This document shows positions 45,676 to 55,664 of a stretch of DNA of 56,637 nt, in pieces (the stretch's first letter is position 1; each line of letters begins with the position of its first letter). The position numbers and the translations under genes are program-made. The stretch comes from Actinomycetes bacterium (GTDB lineage Bacteria > Actinomycetota > Thermoleophilia > UBA2241), in assembly GCA_029547745.1 (NCBI GenBank), contig JAKPOQ010000117.1:1-56637 (forward strand). The letters run 5' to 3'. The notes under the pieces were generated by a model. It worked only from the letters and a program-made list of their open reading frames with translations, was not told the origin of the DNA and searched no databases.

Positions 45676-47040
45676 TCAGACCGGCTCGGCCGGCCAAACG
45701 TCGTGGGAAACGAGGTCCTCGTACGTCTCGGGCCGGCGGATGATCACCAGCCGGCCGTCCTCGACGGCGTAGGCGCCGGCACGGGGCCGGCCGTTGTACT
45801 GGGTCATCGTGTCGAGCGAGTAGGCTCCGACATCACGGAAGACGATTACGTCGCCCACGCCGGTCCTGGCCGACAGACGGCGGTACGGCGTACCGAGGTC
45901 GCCGACGTACACGTCGCCGCTGTCGCACAGCGGCCCTCCGAGGCGGAACGACGCGTCCGCCGGCTCGTCGGCGCGGTTCGCCACGATGGCGCGGAAGTGC
46001 CATTCGGCGAGGGTGTGCTCGATGATGGTGTTGTAACCGGTGTCCAGCAGCAGCCAGTGCTCCTCACCCACGGGGTGGTCGGAGGCGTCAAGGAGGCGTT
46101 TCGTCTTCTCCGCCTCCACATGAGCCACGACAACGGCGGCGTCCGACACCACATAACGGCCGGGTTCGATGAACAGCGCGAGGTCCGGCCGCCGGTCGTT
46201 GACGAGCGCGCAGATCGCCTCGGCGTAGTCATGCGGCGTCGTGATCGCGCAGAAGTAGTCGGTGGCGTCGTAGGCGTCCGCTGTATCGACGTACGGCACC
46301 GGGTAGCCCCCGCCGATGTCGAGGAACTCGAGCGGCCGGCCACAGGCGGCCTCGACCTGTTCGACCAGGTCGAGCGCCTTCTCGACCGCCCGTGCGTAGG
46401 GCTCCACGCTGGTGATCTGCGAACCGATGTGCAGGTGCAGACCGCGCACCCAGAGGCCGTCGAGACGGCAGGCCTGGTCGAAGAGCTCGGCGACGTCGAT
46501 GAGGTCCACGCCGAACTTGCCGCCATGCGCGGTGCGCATCCCCGGGTGCGTCTCGGTCTGGACGCGTACGTCGATGCGCAGGGCCACGTCGGCCTCACGC
46601 CCGAGCGCGACAGACACCTCGTTCACGCGCTCCAGCTCGCACAAGGAGTCGACGACGATGGCACGGATGCCCGCCGTCACCGCCTGTTCGATCTCGGCTC
46701 GCGTCTTGGCCACGCCGTTGAACACGATCTGCCTTCCGGTGAACCCCGCGCGCAACGCCTTCCACAGCTCGCCGCCGGAATTGACCTCGACGTTGATGCC
46801 CGCCTTCTTCACCTGCTCGAGAACCCACAGCGCGCTGCAAGCCTTACTGGCGAAGAAGACCTCGGTGTTCGGGTGACGACTCTGGAAGGCGTCGCGTAAC
46901 GTGGCGACGTTCTCCGCGATGCGGCCGCCGCTGAAGACGAAGAACGGCGTCTGCAGACGCCCGGCGAGGGCCGCGAGGTCGATGTCGTCGAACGTCAGAT
47001 GACCCTCGCGGGTCCCGAGATGCGGGCCACGACTGTCCAC
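45676..47040 (-). CDS. Fold-III PLP decarboxylase (DAP/Orn/Lys/Arg decarboxylase family)
   Basis: A 454-residue alanine-racemase-fold decarboxylase. PFFVFSGGRIAENVATLRDA and VFFASKACSALWVL (PLP lysine in FASKA), LHLHIGSQI, EFLDIGGGYPVPY, FIEPGRYVVSDAA and the C-terminal LCDSGDVYVG are the family blocks; CDSGD gives the active-site Cys. LysA decarboxylates meso-DAP, but length and divergent pairing with an ornithine-racemase-like gene also fit a D-ornithine/D-lysine decarboxylase. Substrate cannot be settled from sequence. GTG 47040 has GGAGG nine bases upstream. Confidence 0.85.
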   Translation of the reverse strand: MDSRGPHLGTREGHLTFDDIDLAALAGRLQTPFFVFSGGRIAENVATLRDAFQSRHPNTEVFFASKACSALWVLEQVKKAGINVEVNSGGELWKALRAGFTGRQIVFNGVAKTRAEIEQAVTAGIRAIVVDSLCELERVNEVSVALGREADVALRIDVRVQTETHPGMRTAHGGKFGVDLIDVAELFDQACRLDGLWVRGLHLHIGSQITSVEPYARAVEKALDLVEQVEAACGRPLEFLDIGGGYPVPYVDTADAYDATDYFCAITTPHDYAEAICALVNDRRPDLALFIEPGRYVVSDAAVVVAHVEAEKTKRLLDASDHPVGEEHWLLLDTGYNTIIEHTLAEWHFRAIVANRADEPADASFRLGGPLCDSGDVYVGDLGTPYRRLSARTGVGDVIVFRDVGAYSLDTMTQYNGRPRAGAYAVEDGRLVIIRRPETYEDLVSHDVWPAEPV

Positions 47041-47151: not shown

Positions 47152-48228
47152 ATGCGGATCGTCGCCGACCTCGACAAGATCGCCGTCAATGCCCGCGCCG
47201 CAGTGGAGCTCTGCGCGCGGCACGGCGTCTCCGTCGCGGCGGTCACGAAGTCCGTATGCGGCGACCCCGGTATCGTGCGCGCGATCCTCGCCGGCGGCGT
47301 GACGACGATCGCGGACTCGCGTCTCGACAACGTCCGGCGCATGCGCGACGCCGGGATCGACTGCGACGTGCTGCTGCTCCGCCTGCCCGCCCCCAGCGAA
47401 GTCGAGGACGTCGTCGCCCTGGCCACGCAGAGCCTGGTCTCGGACCCCGGCGTCCTGCGCGCCCTCTCCACGGCCGCTGTCCGCCAGGGCAAGACCCACG
47501 GCGTCGTCGTGATCGTCGAATGGGGCGACCGCCGCGAGGGCGTCATGCCGGACGATGCCGAGGCGGTATGCCGCCTCGCGCTCGATCTGCCCGGCATCGA
47601 GCTCGCCGGGGTCGCCTGCAACCTCAACTGCCTGTGCGGCGTCCTCCCGACCCCGCAGAACCTGGGCGAGTTCGCCGCGTTCGTCGAGAGCCTCGAGAAG
47701 TCGCTCGGGCAGCGCTTCCCCATCGTCAGCGGCGGACACACGACCTGCCTCAGGTTCGTGGACCAGGGTCTCCTGCCGCCGCGCATCGACCACCTGCGCG
47801 TCGGCGAGGGCATCCTGTTCGGCAGGGACAGCATCGCGGACGTGCCCCTGCCCGGCGGCCACACGGACACGTTCAAGGTCTACGCCGAGGCCATCGAGGT
47901 GGCCGACAAGCCGTCCGCGCCCGCCGGCGAGACCGGTCCGGACGCGTTCCTGCGCACGCGGACGTGGCCCGATCTCGGGATCCGCCGGCGGGCGGTCTTG
48001 GCGATGGGCGAGATCGACGTCAACGTGGAGTGGCTCCACCCCACGCGGTCCGGCGTGACCATCGTCGGCGCAAGCTCCGACCACACCGTGGTCGACGTCA
48101 CCGACGCCGATCCTCCGGTCGAGGTCGGCGACGAGCTCGAGTTCAGGGCAGACTATGTCGCCGTAGCAGTCGCCTGGGCGAGCCGATGCGTGCGGCGGGA
48201 ACTGCTGGGAGGGTCGTTCACCCCATGA
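47152..48228 (+). CDS. Alanine/ornithine racemase-like PLP enzyme
   Basis: A 358-residue fold-III PLP enzyme. MRIVADLDKIAVNARAAVEL and VAAVTKSVCGDPGIVRAIL contain the PLP lysine (Lys 31 or so), LAGVACNLNCLCGVLPTPQN and PIVSGGHTTCLRF follow, and LRVGEGILFGRDSI is near the phosphate site. These blocks are typical of the Clostridium ornithine racemase (Orr) group rather than Alr. It lies back to back with the decarboxylase (111-bp shared promoter region), which suggests a D-amino-acid route. The actual substrate is inferred. Confidence 0.78.
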   Translation: MRIVADLDKIAVNARAAVELCARHGVSVAAVTKSVCGDPGIVRAILAGGVTTIADSRLDNVRRMRDAGIDCDVLLLRLPAPSEVEDVVALATQSLVSDPGVLRALSTAAVRQGKTHGVVVIVEWGDRREGVMPDDAEAVCRLALDLPGIELAGVACNLNCLCGVLPTPQNLGEFAAFVESLEKSLGQRFPIVSGGHTTCLRFVDQGLLPPRIDHLRVGEGILFGRDSIADVPLPGGHTDTFKVYAEAIEVADKPSAPAGETGPDAFLRTRTWPDLGIRRRAVLAMGEIDVNVEWLHPTRSGVTIVGASSDHTVVDVTDADPPVEVGDELEFRADYVAVAVAWASRCVRRELLGGSFTP

Positions 48229-48254
48229 CGCCGACAGTGACGGCCACGTATACT
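48225..48254 (+). promoter_or_regulatory. Promoter of the leader ORF and mttB-like operon
   Basis: ATGACG (48225-48230), an 18-bp spacer and TATACT (48249-48254) in the context ACGTATACTG. Predicted start of transcription is near 48261, about 27 nt before the leader ORF. The -35 box overlaps the end of the racemase gene. Confidence 0.6.
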
Positions 48255-48287
48255 GCAGGCGGCCGGCGACGCGGACCAGGGGAACTC

Positions 48288-48392
48288 ATGATCGATGGCA
48301 TGGACATGGGCAGTACCGAGCTTGCGACCGGCATCAGTCGGGCCGACCTCCGTACGACCGCCTTCTCGGGCGGCAAGCTGCACGACTTCTAA
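48288..48392 (+). CDS. 34-residue leader ORF upstream of the mttB-like pair
   Basis: ATG 48288 to TAA 48390-48392, with AGGGGA five bases before the start and a good promoter upstream. The peptide begins MIDGMDMGSTEL, three Met in seven codons, and ends FSGGKLHDF. It has no signal peptide or recognised family. The stop codon is one base before an 11-nt sequence exactly complementary to the ribosome site of the next gene. A ribosome ending here would cover that sequence, so a regulatory leader peptide is the favoured reading. A RiPP-like precursor is a less likely alternative, since no modifying enzyme of a known class is adjacent. Confidence 0.6.
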   Translation: MIDGMDMGSTELATGISRADLRTTAFSGGKLHDF

Positions 48393-48393
48393 T

Positions 48394-48516
48394 ACCTCCT
48401 CGTCGGCGCCCGAGCTCGGAGGCCCGTCGGGGCCGGCAGCGAGGGCGCCCCACCCAGAGCGGCCGCGCTCCATGTCCTGGCGGCCGCTACAGGCCCCCAC
48501 GACCAGACGAGGAGGT
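48394..48516 (+). ncRNA. Structured leader RNA that sequesters the mttB ribosome site
   Basis: All stems are perfect. P1 is ACCTCCTCGTC (48394-48404) with GACGAGGAGGT (48506-48516). P2 is GGCGCCC (48405-48411) with GGGCGCC (48443-48449), capped by GGCCC/GGGCC (48421-48425/48430-48434). P3 is AGCGGCCGC (48458-48466) with GCGGCCGCT (48480-48488). P1 encloses the others as a three-way junction, and its 3' strand is the Shine-Dalgarno sequence of the gene at 48522. I see no match to a cobalamin, SAM or other named riboswitch. Confidence 0.65.
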
Positions 48517-48521
48517 GCGCG

Positions 48522-49979
48522 ATGACCTACGCCGAGACCCGGTCCGTCGGCCGCCGGCAGCGGCCACTGCGCGTCGTGAGCGACGACGACGTGCGCCGTA
48601 TCCACGAGGCCACGCTCGACGTCCTCTCGACGACCGGCTGCACCTACTATTCGCAGCGGGCGCTCGACGTGCTCGCGGCGAACGGGGCGACGGTCGACCG
48701 CGAAACGACCGTCGCCAAGTTGCCGCCCGAGCTGGTCGAGCGCGCCGTCGCCACCATCCCGCGCCGCCTCACGCTCGGCGCCCGTGACCCGTTCTACGAC
48801 CTCCCCATCGACGGCGAGCATGCCTACCTGACGGTCGACGGCTGCGCCGTCTCGGTGCGCGAGGCGGGCGGCGCGGTGAGGCGCTCGACGAGGGACGACG
48901 TGTTCCGCGCCGCCCGCCTCGCGCATGGCCTCGACGGCTTCGGCGCCACGGCGGCGATCGTCTCCGCCCAGGACAAGCCCGAGCAGTCCCGCGTCCTGCA
49001 CGAACTCGACGCCTGCCTGCGCGGCTCGAGCAAGCACGCCGTCGTCGTCTCCGTCCACGACGAGGACGAGGCCCGTTGGCTGATCCGTATGGGCGAGGCG
49101 GTCGCCGGCGGCAGCCGCGAGCTCCGCGAGCGGCCGCTGTTCACCTGCATCCTCTGCACCGTCTCGCCGCTCCACCAGGAGCGCTTCGGCATGGACCTCG
49201 CCTTCACCCTGGCCGAGGCCGGCATCCCGTTCATGCTCTACCCGATGCCGATCCTCGGCGCCACGGCGCCGGTGACACCGGCGGGCACGGCGGTCGTGAA
49301 CAACGCCGAGATCGTCGCCGCCGTCGTCGCCGTGCAGCTCGCCTTCCCCGGCGCGCCCATCATCCACGCCGGAGGACCGACCGCTCTGGACATGCGCACC
49401 GGCTCGTACTTCGCCGCCGGACCGGAGCCGATGCTGCTGCGCTGCGTCCAAGCGCAGATGGCGGCCTTCTACGGGCTGCCGGCCGGCCTCGGCTACGGCG
49501 GCACCAAGGCTAAGGAGCCCGACGCCCGGGCCGCCTGGGAGAACACGCTCACGATGCTCACCGAGTTCCTCGCCGGCGCCGACTTCATCTTCGGCAGCGG
49601 TCTCCTCGACGGCTCGCAGATCTTCGCCCCCGAACTGCTCGTCATCGACGACGAGGTCTTCGGCATGGTGACGCATCTCCTGCGCGGCGTGACGGTCGAC
49701 GACGAGAGCCTCACCGTCGACCTCATCAAGGGAATGGGCTTCGAGGGGCGGTACCTGCGGGAGCGGCAGACGCGCGCGGGCGCGCGTGACCTGTGGCGGG
49801 CGCGCCTCGGCGAGACGCGCTCGTACGAAGCCTGGCGCGCCGCCGGCGCGCCCTCCACCGCGGCGCGCGCCCGCGCGCGCGTCGATGAGATCCTCGCCGC
49901 CCCGGCCGTTCCCTTCCCGGACGACCTCGGCCGCGAGCTGGATTCGATCATCTCCGCGGCCGAGGCGACCGCGCGCTGA
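48522..49979 (+). CDS. MttB-family (trimethylamine methyltransferase-like) protein, copy 1
   Basis: A 485-residue TIM-barrel corrinoid methyltransferase. IHEATLDVLSTTGCTYYSQR is the usual N-terminus; CTVSPLHQERFGMDLAFTLA, YPMPILGATAPVTPAG and GADFIFGSGLLDGSQIF are family blocks. The reading frame has no in-frame amber codon, so it is a non-pyrrolysine MttB homologue, a group acting on quaternary amines such as glycine betaine, proline betaine or carnitine and passing the methyl group to a corrinoid protein. No corrinoid protein or activase is in the window. GAGGAGG six bases before ATG 48522 is the site masked by the leader RNA. Confidence 0.9.
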   Translation: MTYAETRSVGRRQRPLRVVSDDDVRRIHEATLDVLSTTGCTYYSQRALDVLAANGATVDRETTVAKLPPELVERAVATIPRRLTLGARDPFYDLPIDGEHAYLTVDGCAVSVREAGGAVRRSTRDDVFRAARLAHGLDGFGATAAIVSAQDKPEQSRVLHELDACLRGSSKHAVVVSVHDEDEARWLIRMGEAVAGGSRELRERPLFTCILCTVSPLHQERFGMDLAFTLAEAGIPFMLYPMPILGATAPVTPAGTAVVNNAEIVAAVVAVQLAFPGAPIIHAGGPTALDMRTGSYFAAGPEPMLLRCVQAQMAAFYGLPAGLGYGGTKAKEPDARAAWENTLTMLTEFLAGADFIFGSGLLDGSQIFAPELLVIDDEVFGMVTHLLRGVTVDDESLTVDLIKGMGFEGRYLRERQTRAGARDLWRARLGETRSYEAWRAAGAPSTAARARARVDEILAAPAVPFPDDLGRELDSIISAAEATAR

Positions 49980-49991
49980 AAGGAGCTGCCG

Positions 49992-51509
49992 ATGACGCAG
50001 ACAGCAGACAGCCAGCATACAGGGCAGACTTCGAACCGGCCCGGCACACCCGCCAGCGCGTCGCCCGACCCCGCCTTCGTCGGCCGCCGCGTCAAGCTCG
50101 AACTGCTCGACGGCGACGAGGTGCGTCGCATCCACGAAGCCACGCTCGACGTCCTCGCCGACACCGGCATGACGTATCACTCGCAGAAGGCCCTCGACAT
50201 CCTCGCGGCCCATGGCGCCGCCGTCGACCGCGAGACGACCGTCGCCAAGCTGCCACCGGCCCTCGTCGAGCAGGCCCTCGCCACGCTGCCCGCGTCCTTC
50301 GTCCTCGGCGGCCGTACGCCGGCGGACGACCTCACCCTGGACGGCGAGCACGTCTACCTCAGCTCGGACGGCTGCGGCGTGTTCCGCCGCGAGCTCGACG
50401 GCACCGTGCGCCCGTCGCGCAAGAGCGACCTCGTCGACACGGCCCGGGTCGTCCAGGCGATGACGAATGTCTCCGCCACCTCGGCGATCGTCTCGGCCCA
50501 GGACTGCCCCGCCGAGACCCGCGTCCTGCATGAGTTCGACGCCTGCGTGCGCAACTCGAGCAAGCACACGATCGTCGTCTCCATCAAGGAGGACCGCGAG
50601 GCGCGCAGCCTGCTGCGCATGGCCGAGGCGCTGGCCGGCGGCCGCGACGAGCTGCGCCGGCGGCCGCCCTTCACGGCCATCATCTGCACCGTGTCGCCGC
50701 TCCACCAGGAGCGCTTCGGCATGGACCTCGCCCTGACGCTCGCCGAGGCCGGCATCCCCATCAGCTTCTACCCGATGCCGATCCTCGGCGCCACGGCTCC
50801 GGTCACGATCGCCGGCGCCGCCGTCGTCAACAACGCCGAACTCGTCGGCGCCACCGTCCTCGTGCAGCTCGCCCATCCCGGCGCCAAGGTCATCCACGGC
50901 GGCGGGCCGACGGCCATGGACATGAACAGCGGCGCCTACGCGAGCAACTCGCCCGAGGCCATCCTGCTGCGCTCGGTCCAGGGTCACATGGCCGACTTCT
51001 ACGGCATGCCGGCGTGGTTCGGCGCCGGGGCGACCACGGCCAAGGAGCCGGGAGCGCAGTCAGCCTACGAGAACGCCCTGGCGATGTTCATGGCCTACGC
51101 CGACGGCGCCGACCTCACCTTCGGCACAGGCCTGCTCGACGGCTCGCGCATCCTCTGCCTTGAGAACATCGTCATCGACGACGAGGTGTTCGGCATGGTG
51201 CGCCGCATCCTCCGCGGCGTGCGCGTCGACGACGAGTCCCTCGCCGTCGACCTCATCAAGCGCATGGGCTTCGGCGGCGACTACCTCTTCGACCGGCACA
51301 CGCGCGCTCACGTGCGCGAACTCTGGCAGGCGCGCCTGGGCGAGACCGGCAGCTACGACGCCTGGGTCCAGGCCGGTCGTCGCGGTGTCATCGACAAGGC
51401 GGCCGACCGGGTGCGCGAGGTCCTCGCCGCCGAGCCCGAGCCGTTCCCCGACGACCTCGGGCGCGAGTTCGACGCCATCATCCAGGCGGCCGGCGAAGAG
51501 ACCGCATAG
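49992..51509 (+). CDS. MttB-family (trimethylamine methyltransferase-like) protein, copy 2
   Basis: A 505-residue paralogue of the preceding gene, well over half identical by eye (shared IHEATLDVL, CTVSPLHQERFGMDL, YPMPILGATAPVT, VFGMV, DDESL, DLIK). It starts with ATG 49992 after AAAGGAG, 12 bp from the stop of copy 1, so translation is not subject to the leader stem directly. The N-terminal 25 residues are extra. Differences cluster near the barrel mouth (AWFGAGATTAKEPGAQSAY against AGLGYGGTKAKEPDARAAW), which may mean different substrates. No in-frame amber codon is used. Confidence 0.9.
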   Translation: MTQTADSQHTGQTSNRPGTPASASPDPAFVGRRVKLELLDGDEVRRIHEATLDVLADTGMTYHSQKALDILAAHGAAVDRETTVAKLPPALVEQALATLPASFVLGGRTPADDLTLDGEHVYLSSDGCGVFRRELDGTVRPSRKSDLVDTARVVQAMTNVSATSAIVSAQDCPAETRVLHEFDACVRNSSKHTIVVSIKEDREARSLLRMAEALAGGRDELRRRPPFTAIICTVSPLHQERFGMDLALTLAEAGIPISFYPMPILGATAPVTIAGAAVVNNAELVGATVLVQLAHPGAKVIHGGGPTAMDMNSGAYASNSPEAILLRSVQGHMADFYGMPAWFGAGATTAKEPGAQSAYENALAMFMAYADGADLTFGTGLLDGSRILCLENIVIDDEVFGMVRRILRGVRVDDESLAVDLIKRMGFGGDYLFDRHTRAHVRELWQARLGETGSYDAWVQAGRRGVIDKAADRVREVLAAEPEPFPDDLGREFDAIIQAAGEETA

Positions 51510-53471: not shown

Positions 53472-55664
53472 TTGACGAGCGACGGCCCGCCCCGCGAAGA
53501 AGGCTTCTCCAAGGACGCCGACAAGCTGATCCGGCGGCTCTCGCTGGTCGCCCTGCTGCTCTCGCGTGGCGGTCGGCCGGTGACGACCGAGCAGATCCGC
53601 CGGAGCGTCGAGGGCTACCCGCGGATGTCGGACGACGCCTTCAAGCGGCGCTTCTACGAAGACCGCGACGAGCTCGGCAAGCTGGGCATCCCGATCGTCG
53701 CCGGCGAGGATCCCGAGACGAGGGGTGAGGTCTACCGCCTGCCGGCGAGCGCCTACTACCTGCCGCCCGTCCACCTGACCCGCGAGGAACTCACCGCCCT
53801 CGCCGCCTGTCTCGCCGTACTGCAGGACCGCTTCGCCTACTCGAAGCCGCTGCGCCTCGCCCTCGTGAGTCTCATGCAGGGCCGCCCGGAACTACTGCAA
53901 GAGGCTTCAGCGCCGGGGGCCGCGGCGGCCCCGGAGCCCGGGGCGGCGACGGGGCCCGGGGCGGCGCCGGGGCCCGCGGCGGCGCCGGAAGCCGGGGCGG
54001 CGCCGGAGGCCGGGGCGGCGGGGCTCGCCGTCGTTGCTGAGCCCGGTCCCGGCGCCGCCGTCCTGCCCAAGCTGCAGGCGGCCATCGCCGAGCGCAAGAC
54101 GGTCGTCTTCCGCTACTACGCGATCGGCCGCGACGAGGAACGCGAGCGCACGGTCGACCCCTACGGCCTCCAACTGGTCGGCGACGAGTGGTACCTCATC
54201 GGCTTCTGCCACCTGCGGCAGGCGGTGCGCACTTTCCGCCTGTCGCGCATCCGCTCGCGCGTGACCTACGCGACGCGCGCCCCGCACGACTTCTCCCTTC
54301 CGGAGGACTTCGACCTCGCCGCCTACCGCGACCGCCCTCCGTGGCGCCTCGGCGCCGCCGTCGGCGAGGCTTGCATCCGCGTGGCTGCCGACATGGCCTG
54401 GTGGGTCCAGGCGCACTACGCCCGCTGCGGTACGATCGAGCGACTGGATGACAACGATATCCGCTTCACCACCGCCTACTCCTCGGCGCCGGAGATCCTC
54501 GCCTGGGTCCTGGGCCTCGGCGAGTACGCCACGCTCGAAGGGCCCGAAGAGCTGCGCACCGAGCTCAGGGCGCAGCTGGACCGGCTCGACGCCCTGCTCG
54601 CCGCGCCGCCGCCCGACCTCGCCGGTGCGGCGCCGGCCGCCGCGCCGAAGGCGCGCCGCCGGCGCCGCACCGGCGACGACTGGCGCGTCGAGGTCGACCG
54701 TTTCACCAGGCTCACGGCCCTCGCCACCTACCTGCTGCGCCACTGCGACGAGAGCGGGGAGGGCCTGCTCCCTGTCAGCCGCGTGTGCGAGGACCTCGAC
54801 CTCACGCCTGAGGAGCTGCGCGCCGACGTTCGCCTCCTCAACCTCGTCAACTTCGGCGCCGACGGCGCCCTCCTCTTCGCCCAGTACAAGGACCGCGACA
54901 CGATCGAGGTCTGGTGCGACCTCGCCGGCGAGACCTTCGCGCGCCCGGCCCGCCTCTCGCCGCTCCAGGCCGACACGCTGCTGCTCGCCATCGAGCTCGT
55001 CGGCGGCCAGGCGCCGGTCGCCTCGGGCGCGGCGCTCGCCAGCGCGGCCGAGAAGCTCCGCGCGGCGCGCTATGCCGGTCCGCCGACCTTAGCCGCGAGC
55101 GCACAGTTGCCCCCGCAAGACGACGTCTTCGCCGCCGTCAGCGCGGCCATCCGCGACCGCCGCCTCCTCGACATCGAGTACTGGAGCGAAGGGACGGGCG
55201 AGACCACCGAGCGGACGGTCGAGCCCTACCTCATGGTGCGCAGCCGCGGCGAGTGGTACTACGTCTGCTACTGTCGCCGCGCGCAGGGACGGCGCGTCTT
55301 CCGCGTCGCGACGACCAAACGCGCCGTCCTCCGTGACGAGACCTTCGCGCCACGCCCGGACCTCGAGCTCGAGCTCTACCGCCGTGAGGGGATCCCCTCG
55401 TCGCAGGCCTACGCGCCGCGGACGGCGACCGTCTGGTACAGCCCCCGGGCAGCGCGCTACGTCGAGGAGGAGCAGCCTGTCGACCGGCTCCCGGACGGCT
55501 CCTGTGTCGTCCGCCAGCCGTACCTCGACGACCCTTGGCTCGTCCATCACCTCCTGCGCTTCGCCGGGGAGGCTCGTCCGCTCGCCCCGGCGGACGCCGT
55601 CGAGGCGATGCGCAGGACAGTGCGCCGCCTCCGCGAGCAGTACGGCGACGGCGGAGACGCATGA
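53472..55664 (+). CDS. pafBC: Fused PafB-PafC-type WYL transcriptional regulator
   Basis: A 730-residue protein made of two similar halves. Half 1 has a helix-turn-helix (LSLVALLLSRGGRPVTTEQI) and WYL domain (ERTVDPYGLQLVGDEWYLIG); half 2 has a second helix-turn-helix (about 400-480) and WYL domain (ERTVEPYLMVRSRGEWYYVC). In mycobacteria PafB and PafC are separate and activate DNA-damage genes without LexA; single-chain fusions are known. An Ala/Pro/Gly run of about 45 residues joins the domains of half 1. The start is TTG 53472 with GAGGAGA upstream. Confidence 0.88.
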   Translation: MTSDGPPREEGFSKDADKLIRRLSLVALLLSRGGRPVTTEQIRRSVEGYPRMSDDAFKRRFYEDRDELGKLGIPIVAGEDPETRGEVYRLPASAYYLPPVHLTREELTALAACLAVLQDRFAYSKPLRLALVSLMQGRPELLQEASAPGAAAAPEPGAATGPGAAPGPAAAPEAGAAPEAGAAGLAVVAEPGPGAAVLPKLQAAIAERKTVVFRYYAIGRDEERERTVDPYGLQLVGDEWYLIGFCHLRQAVRTFRLSRIRSRVTYATRAPHDFSLPEDFDLAAYRDRPPWRLGAAVGEACIRVAADMAWWVQAHYARCGTIERLDDNDIRFTTAYSSAPEILAWVLGLGEYATLEGPEELRTELRAQLDRLDALLAAPPPDLAGAAPAAAPKARRRRRTGDDWRVEVDRFTRLTALATYLLRHCDESGEGLLPVSRVCEDLDLTPEELRADVRLLNLVNFGADGALLFAQYKDRDTIEVWCDLAGETFARPARLSPLQADTLLLAIELVGGQAPVASGAALASAAEKLRAARYAGPPTLAASAQLPPQDDVFAAVSAAIRDRRLLDIEYWSEGTGETTERTVEPYLMVRSRGEWYYVCYCRRAQGRRVFRVATTKRAVLRDETFAPRPDLELELYRREGIPSSQAYAPRTATVWYSPRAARYVEEEQPVDRLPDGSCVVRQPYLDDPWLVHHLLRFAGEARPLAPADAVEAMRRTVRRLREQYGDGGDA

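Follow-up and report, generated by a model that had tools for sequence, protein, structure and literature searches.

Does the short open reading frame (ORF) that separates a promoter from a pair of MttB-family methyltransferase genes act on these genes, and if so, at which point of its own translation? The question is raised by a 56,637-nucleotide stretch of DNA from an uncultured actinobacterium (the whole stretch is called the window here), whose genome is related to Thermoleophilia MAGs. The sequence-only reading of this locus had described a promoter, a 34-codon ORF ending in TAA and, directly behind it, an 11-nt complement of the Shine-Dalgarno (SD) sequence of the next gene, and all of them were found in place when the sequence was reread. 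The features of the locus, with the basis of each in brackets, are the following.

45676 to 47040, minus strand: D-ornithine/D-lysine decarboxylase-like (DokD-like) gene, divergent, a conserved neighbour (closest family, below curated cut-off)
47152 to 48228, plus strand: ornithine-racemase (Orr)-like PLP protein, start inferred (NCBIfam NF040742, below curated cut-off)
48225 to 48254, plus strand: sigma-70-like promoter ATGACG-N18-TATACT (sequence read directly)
48288 to 48392, plus strand: leader ORF MIDGMDMGSTELATGISRADLRTTAFSGGKLHDF, 34 codons, TAA stop (conserved short ORF, 12 of 12 intact family genomes)
48345 to 48389, plus strand: conserved C-terminal block of the leader, D-x-R-x-[TA]-A-F-x-G-G-[KR]-x-H-D-F (pN/pS comparison)
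48394 to 48404, plus strand: anti-SD strand ACCTCCTCGTC, 5' side of stem P1, one base after the stop (exact complement, fold)
48405 to 48505, plus strand: inner arms of the predicted junction (fold; not conserved in relatives)
48506 to 48516, plus strand: 3' side of P1, GACGAGGAGGT, including the SD of the first mttB gene (exact complement of ACCTCCTCGTC, fold)
48522 to 49979, plus strand: MttB-family methyltransferase 1, without in-frame TAG (Pfam PF06253)
49992 to 51509, plus strand: MttB-family methyltransferase 2 (Pfam PF06253)

The decarboxylase and racemase assignments in the window, lying below the curated family cut-offs, are leads only, and the gene order of the window comes from a single assembly. 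The promoter is the only sigma-70-like match between 47000 and 48540. The leader ORF extends from the ATG at 48288, with GGGGA upstream of it, to the TAA at 48390-48392. No intrinsic terminator was found in the leader region of the window, and a search of the window with Rfam covariance models at gathering score returned tRNA only, leaving the leader without match to a described leader or riboswitch.

The length of 34 codons alone is no proof of a gene, because the DNA is GC-rich and the frame is already open upstream of the ATG; the ORF becomes credible because it is conserved in 12 genomes. Close homologues of the mttB pair are present in 12 other genomes of the family (99 relatives searched; the relatives, so far as named records show, being MAGs from a single family). 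When the DNA of the leader region was used as query, matches appeared in relatives just 5' of the mttB cluster. Similarity between the window DNA and the orthologous loci is restricted to the surroundings of the leader ORF 3' end. The twelve genomes with an intact region do not include G010, whose locus is cut by a contig end, or G012 and G014, which are without good match to the racemase or mttB genes of the cluster. Conservation in relatives had been suggested earlier as the test of the ORF, and the ORF shows it: in all twelve, it lies behind a correspondingly positioned TAT[AG]CT -10 box, 7-41 nt 5' of the ORF, and its C-terminus is constrained at the level of the peptide.

The last 15 residues follow the pattern D-x-R-x-[TA]-A-F-x-G-G-[KR]-x-H-D-[FY]-stop; G003 and G008 deviate from it, with a diverged form ending in ...LHDY. 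The N-terminus is free in sequence as well as in length, the whole peptide having 22-34 residues. Among the ten alignable leaders, pN/pS amounts to 0.46 for the last 14 codons and 0.37 for the last 10, against 0.90 for the upstream part. Synonymous changes occur inside the block: the invariant Arg is written as AGA, AGG, CGC or CGT, the invariant Asp as GAC or GAT and Lys as AAA or AAG. Peptide-level conservation is concentrated in this block and reaches up to the stop codon. A degenerate pattern of the C-terminus was matched in 9 of 399 genomes of the class, each of them a member of the family with its match at the leader locus (control pattern: 0), and among 397 genomes of the phylum in the window's own genome only; a scan of about 740 other genomes sampled from class and phylum did not find the motif. 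Seven stretches around further mttB or racemase genes in the window's genome were checked, and no leader was found there. Judged from these comparisons, the ORF encodes a genuine leader peptide, conserved throughout the family, whose conserved C-terminal part runs up to the stop codon.

The choice of stop codon is restricted too. Six leaders end in UAA, six in UAG and none in UGA, the codon that ends 62% of 160 genes sampled from the same contigs with a simple ORF caller; the chance of finding no UGA would be about 1e-5 for independent leaders, and these come from related genomes. UAA and UAG are both read by RF1. Conservation at the C-terminus and at the stop codon points to arrest of the nascent chain at termination, not to stalling at early codons.

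Read-through of the leader UAG by pyrrolysine, considered as a shared mechanism, was rejected as the common switch, since UAA takes the place of UAG in six of the twelve leaders. The Thermoleophilia family itself very probably uses pyrrolysine, since PylS was found in ten of ten family genomes tested and mttB genes with in-frame TAG occur. In the window's genome (2.27 Mb) MttB-family matches number 20, of which six contain a single in-frame TAG, and its PylS gene scores over the family cut-off; the loci concerned are L004, L006, L007 and L008 of G000 and also C78 and C84.

What follows the stop codon in the window is able to pair with the next SD. A perfect complement of at least 11 nt between the first 20 post-stop nt and the SD region appeared in 2 of 20,000 spacer shuffles. 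The predicted fold of 48385-48535 reaches -83.1 kcal/mol (z = -4.1), with a z of only -1.5 for the whole region. Masking the 12 nt after the stop in the window costs 16.3 kcal/mol of folding energy; the computed accessibility of the SD then goes up from 0.14 to 0.34. Inside P1 the fold has three inner arms and forms a four-way junction, in place of the two stems and three-way junction described previously. A multi-arm junction was rejected as a conserved element: spacers differ in length and fold among relatives, and only the window has these inner arms.

Across the twelve genomes, the first 20 post-stop nt, roughly the stretch under a ribosome parked at the stop, are more anti-SD-like and pyrimidine-rich than those after 160 other genes (permutation p <1/5000), and they pair on average better with their own SD region than with SD regions swapped between genomes (p = 0.0024, or 0.014 when the window is left out), p-values that overstate independence because the 12 leaders share ancestry. 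Spacers are not alignable between genomes, and the evidence for pairing is the matching of whole segments, with no individual compensatory base pair. In full folds, SD pairing is strong only in the window, G006, G002 and G009 (4 of 12 genomes) and weak or absent in G004, G005, G011 and G013; the downstream start codons of G002, G007, G011 and G013 are inferred ones. Post-stop nucleotides resemble an anti-SD sequence, and in several genomes the predicted folds have them sequestering the SD in front of the first gene of the operon.

Which gene comes first in the operon varies. Relatives have the order decarboxylase (divergent), leader, racemase-like gene, mttB, mttB, with the decarboxylase further from the leader in G007. 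In the window the leader abuts mttB, because there a different racemase sits upstream of the leader. This racemase is not orthologous to the post-leader racemase of the relatives (31-36% identity), whose copies are about 59-79% identical among themselves. The relatives' type was not found elsewhere in the window's genome, which has only paralogues of 34-36% identity, and a search of the rest of the phylum at E 1e-70, run without positive control, gave no orthologue. Racemase-like paralogues are located at L091 (G000:C94:32016-36367) and at G000:C12:7451-8458; the one on C94 lies between two further mttB genes, so the racemase-mttB linkage recurs in this genome. The leader is not specific to mttB, since in relatives it precedes the racemase-like gene and mttB comes after. 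It outlasted a change of the racemase next to it, as would be expected if it regulates the operon in cis.

A conserved C-terminus, a free N-terminus, a constrained stop codon and the post-stop strand together have the anatomy of termination arrest, and we therefore propose that arrest takes place at the stop. The leader is the first ORF after the conserved promoter, the operon stands behind it, and an anti-SD-like, C-rich tract lies within 20 nt of its stop. We regard it as rather probable that it is a cis-acting termination-arrest leader peptide of the SpeFL/TnaC/MdtU kind which unmasks the SD of the first gene. The nascent chain, its conserved C-terminus still in the exit tunnel, would make the ribosome pause or arrest at UAA or UAG under a metabolic signal. 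The arrested ribosome would cover about 12 nt past the stop and hold the anti-SD strand away, and ribosomes could then load at the freed SD, on mttB in the window or on the racemase-like gene in relatives; without arrest the SD would stay masked. Because the conserved ORF is followed directly by an anti-SD-like strand, ribosome-controlled unmasking, the core of the sequence-only reading, stands as the best reading, while an early stall, a conserved junction and specificity for mttB are not supported. The leader is probably a ribosome-stalling switch, with stalling as the predicted part, for an amino-acid/methylamine operon in uncultured actinobacteria.

More speculatively, the signal may be an amino acid of the ornithine/lysine type or one of its methylated forms, a guess drawn only from the likeness of the neighbours to D-ornithine/lysine decarboxylase, ornithine racemase and quaternary-amine methyltransferases. 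D-ornithine is possibly the ligand; it can feed pyrrolysine-type biosynthesis (PMC11467909). We put forward only tentatively, and with low confidence, that the leaders form a new arrest-peptide family with an origin separate from that of SpeFL. Its ligand would be an amino acid that is N-methylated or derived from ornithine or lysine, and its targets would be the racemase and MttB genes of actinobacteria that use pyrrolysine.

The main rival to SD unmasking, unlikely in our estimate, is a Rho-based output: in a TnaC-like transcription attenuation, the C-rich post-stop tract would be a Rho loading site hidden by the arrested ribosome, and SD pairing would be secondary. TnaC is a precedent with the same mode of action, SD pairing is missing in some genomes, and the 60 post-stop nt have a C:G ratio of 1.39 against 1.00 after other genes (p 0.0001) and 13.9 YC dinucleotides against 9.5. 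However, the C excess is short, with most of it confined to the first 20 nt; Rho sites are described as having little structure, whereas the spacers here fold strongly; and Rho alone does not predict the matched pairing with the own SD. Distinctly less probable is a functional micropeptide that acts in trans, as a small regulator or subunit, with regulation incidental. It would account for the own promoter and for codon-level conservation of the peptide, its C-terminal position included, but not for a free N-terminus and length with only 15 residues before the stop kept, nor for the avoidance of UGA and the constrained post-stop RNA; besides, the ORF is always first in this operon and found nowhere else, and the peptide matches no known protein family. 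A little lower still we rank a uORF that senses nothing and by its mere translation holds the next SD accessible or favours re-initiation. Re-initiation after a leader ORF is one proposed way of increasing translation of the following gene (PMC4833913), and spacers are short (57-78 nt) in G003, G005, G006 and G008, but in others they reach 120-190 nt or more, and neither a conserved 15-residue C-terminus nor a fixed type of stop would be required. The attenuator for methionine (or methyl-supply) starvation suggested earlier, with a stall on the three Met codons among the first seven of the window ORF, can be dismissed as highly improbable, because internal Met codons are essentially peculiar to the window, being absent from 10 of 11 relatives (one internal Met occurs in the remaining one).

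SpeFL sits upstream of speF, the gene of an ornithine decarboxylase. To our knowledge, the leader has no recognisable sequence relation to SpeFL or TnaC. Like SpeFL, the L-ornithine-sensing peptide of gamma-proteobacteria, which is short and arrests at its stop with RF1-mediated release inhibited, our leaders have stops of RF1 type only and adjoin ornithine-type enzymes; unlike it, they belong to another phylum, their first controlled gene is racemase or mttB, and their arrest and ligand are predicted. With TnaC of the tna operon (24 residues) they would share arrest at the stop and a regulatory site immediately after it, whereas TnaC uses UGA/RF2, Trp as ligand and Rho as output. In erm-type attenuators (ErmCL and others) the position of the leader ribosome decides on masking of the next SD. 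An SD-sequestering strand which the leader ribosome could cover is predicted in the window and clear in only 4 of 12 genomes. In erm leaders, moreover, a macrolide causes stalling within the ORF, while conservation here is at the stop, and the genes behind our leader are racemase-like and mttB, not resistance genes. RAPP/RAGP peptides of Sec/YidC-related genes also carry a short arrest motif 5' of the controlled gene; however, the RA[PG]P motif is absent from all 12 leaders, and no protein-localisation gene lies downstream. In SpeFL and TnaC release is blocked at the stop, in SpeFL with ornithine as ligand and for RF1-mediated release (PMC8429421), and the C-terminal conservation of MdtU overlaps RNA for which base pairing with the RBS of the next gene has been predicted (PMC7815308). 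MdtU of mdtJI thus resembles our leaders in that its C-terminus is the most conserved part and that an interaction with the following RBS is predicted; it differs in the position of the pairing RNA, which overlaps the coding end in MdtU but comes immediately behind the stop codon in our leaders.

A full-text literature search on MttB and leader peptide gave no paper on such control by title or abstract. If true, the proposal would mean leader-peptide control of operons for MttB-type quaternary-amine methyltransferases, a new candidate among the arrest peptides that sense metabolites, from a lineage of uncultured actinobacteria, and a second termination-arrest leader adjoining ornithine-type enzymes. 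The conserved block of 15 residues makes the leader directly testable in a cell-free system.

Two further observations concern the neighbourhood of the leader. G002 has the DokD-like decarboxylase in two tandem copies (L036 8976-10487 and 10571-12064, G002:C95) and, between the leader and the racemase-like gene, a second mini-ORF of about 22 codons with a GTG start (L036 12247-12315, G002:C95), whose TGA overlaps the racemase ATG (ATGA), which suggests translational coupling. A WYL-domain (PafC-like) regulator lies downstream in the window (53472-55664) and is found near the cluster in nine genomes.
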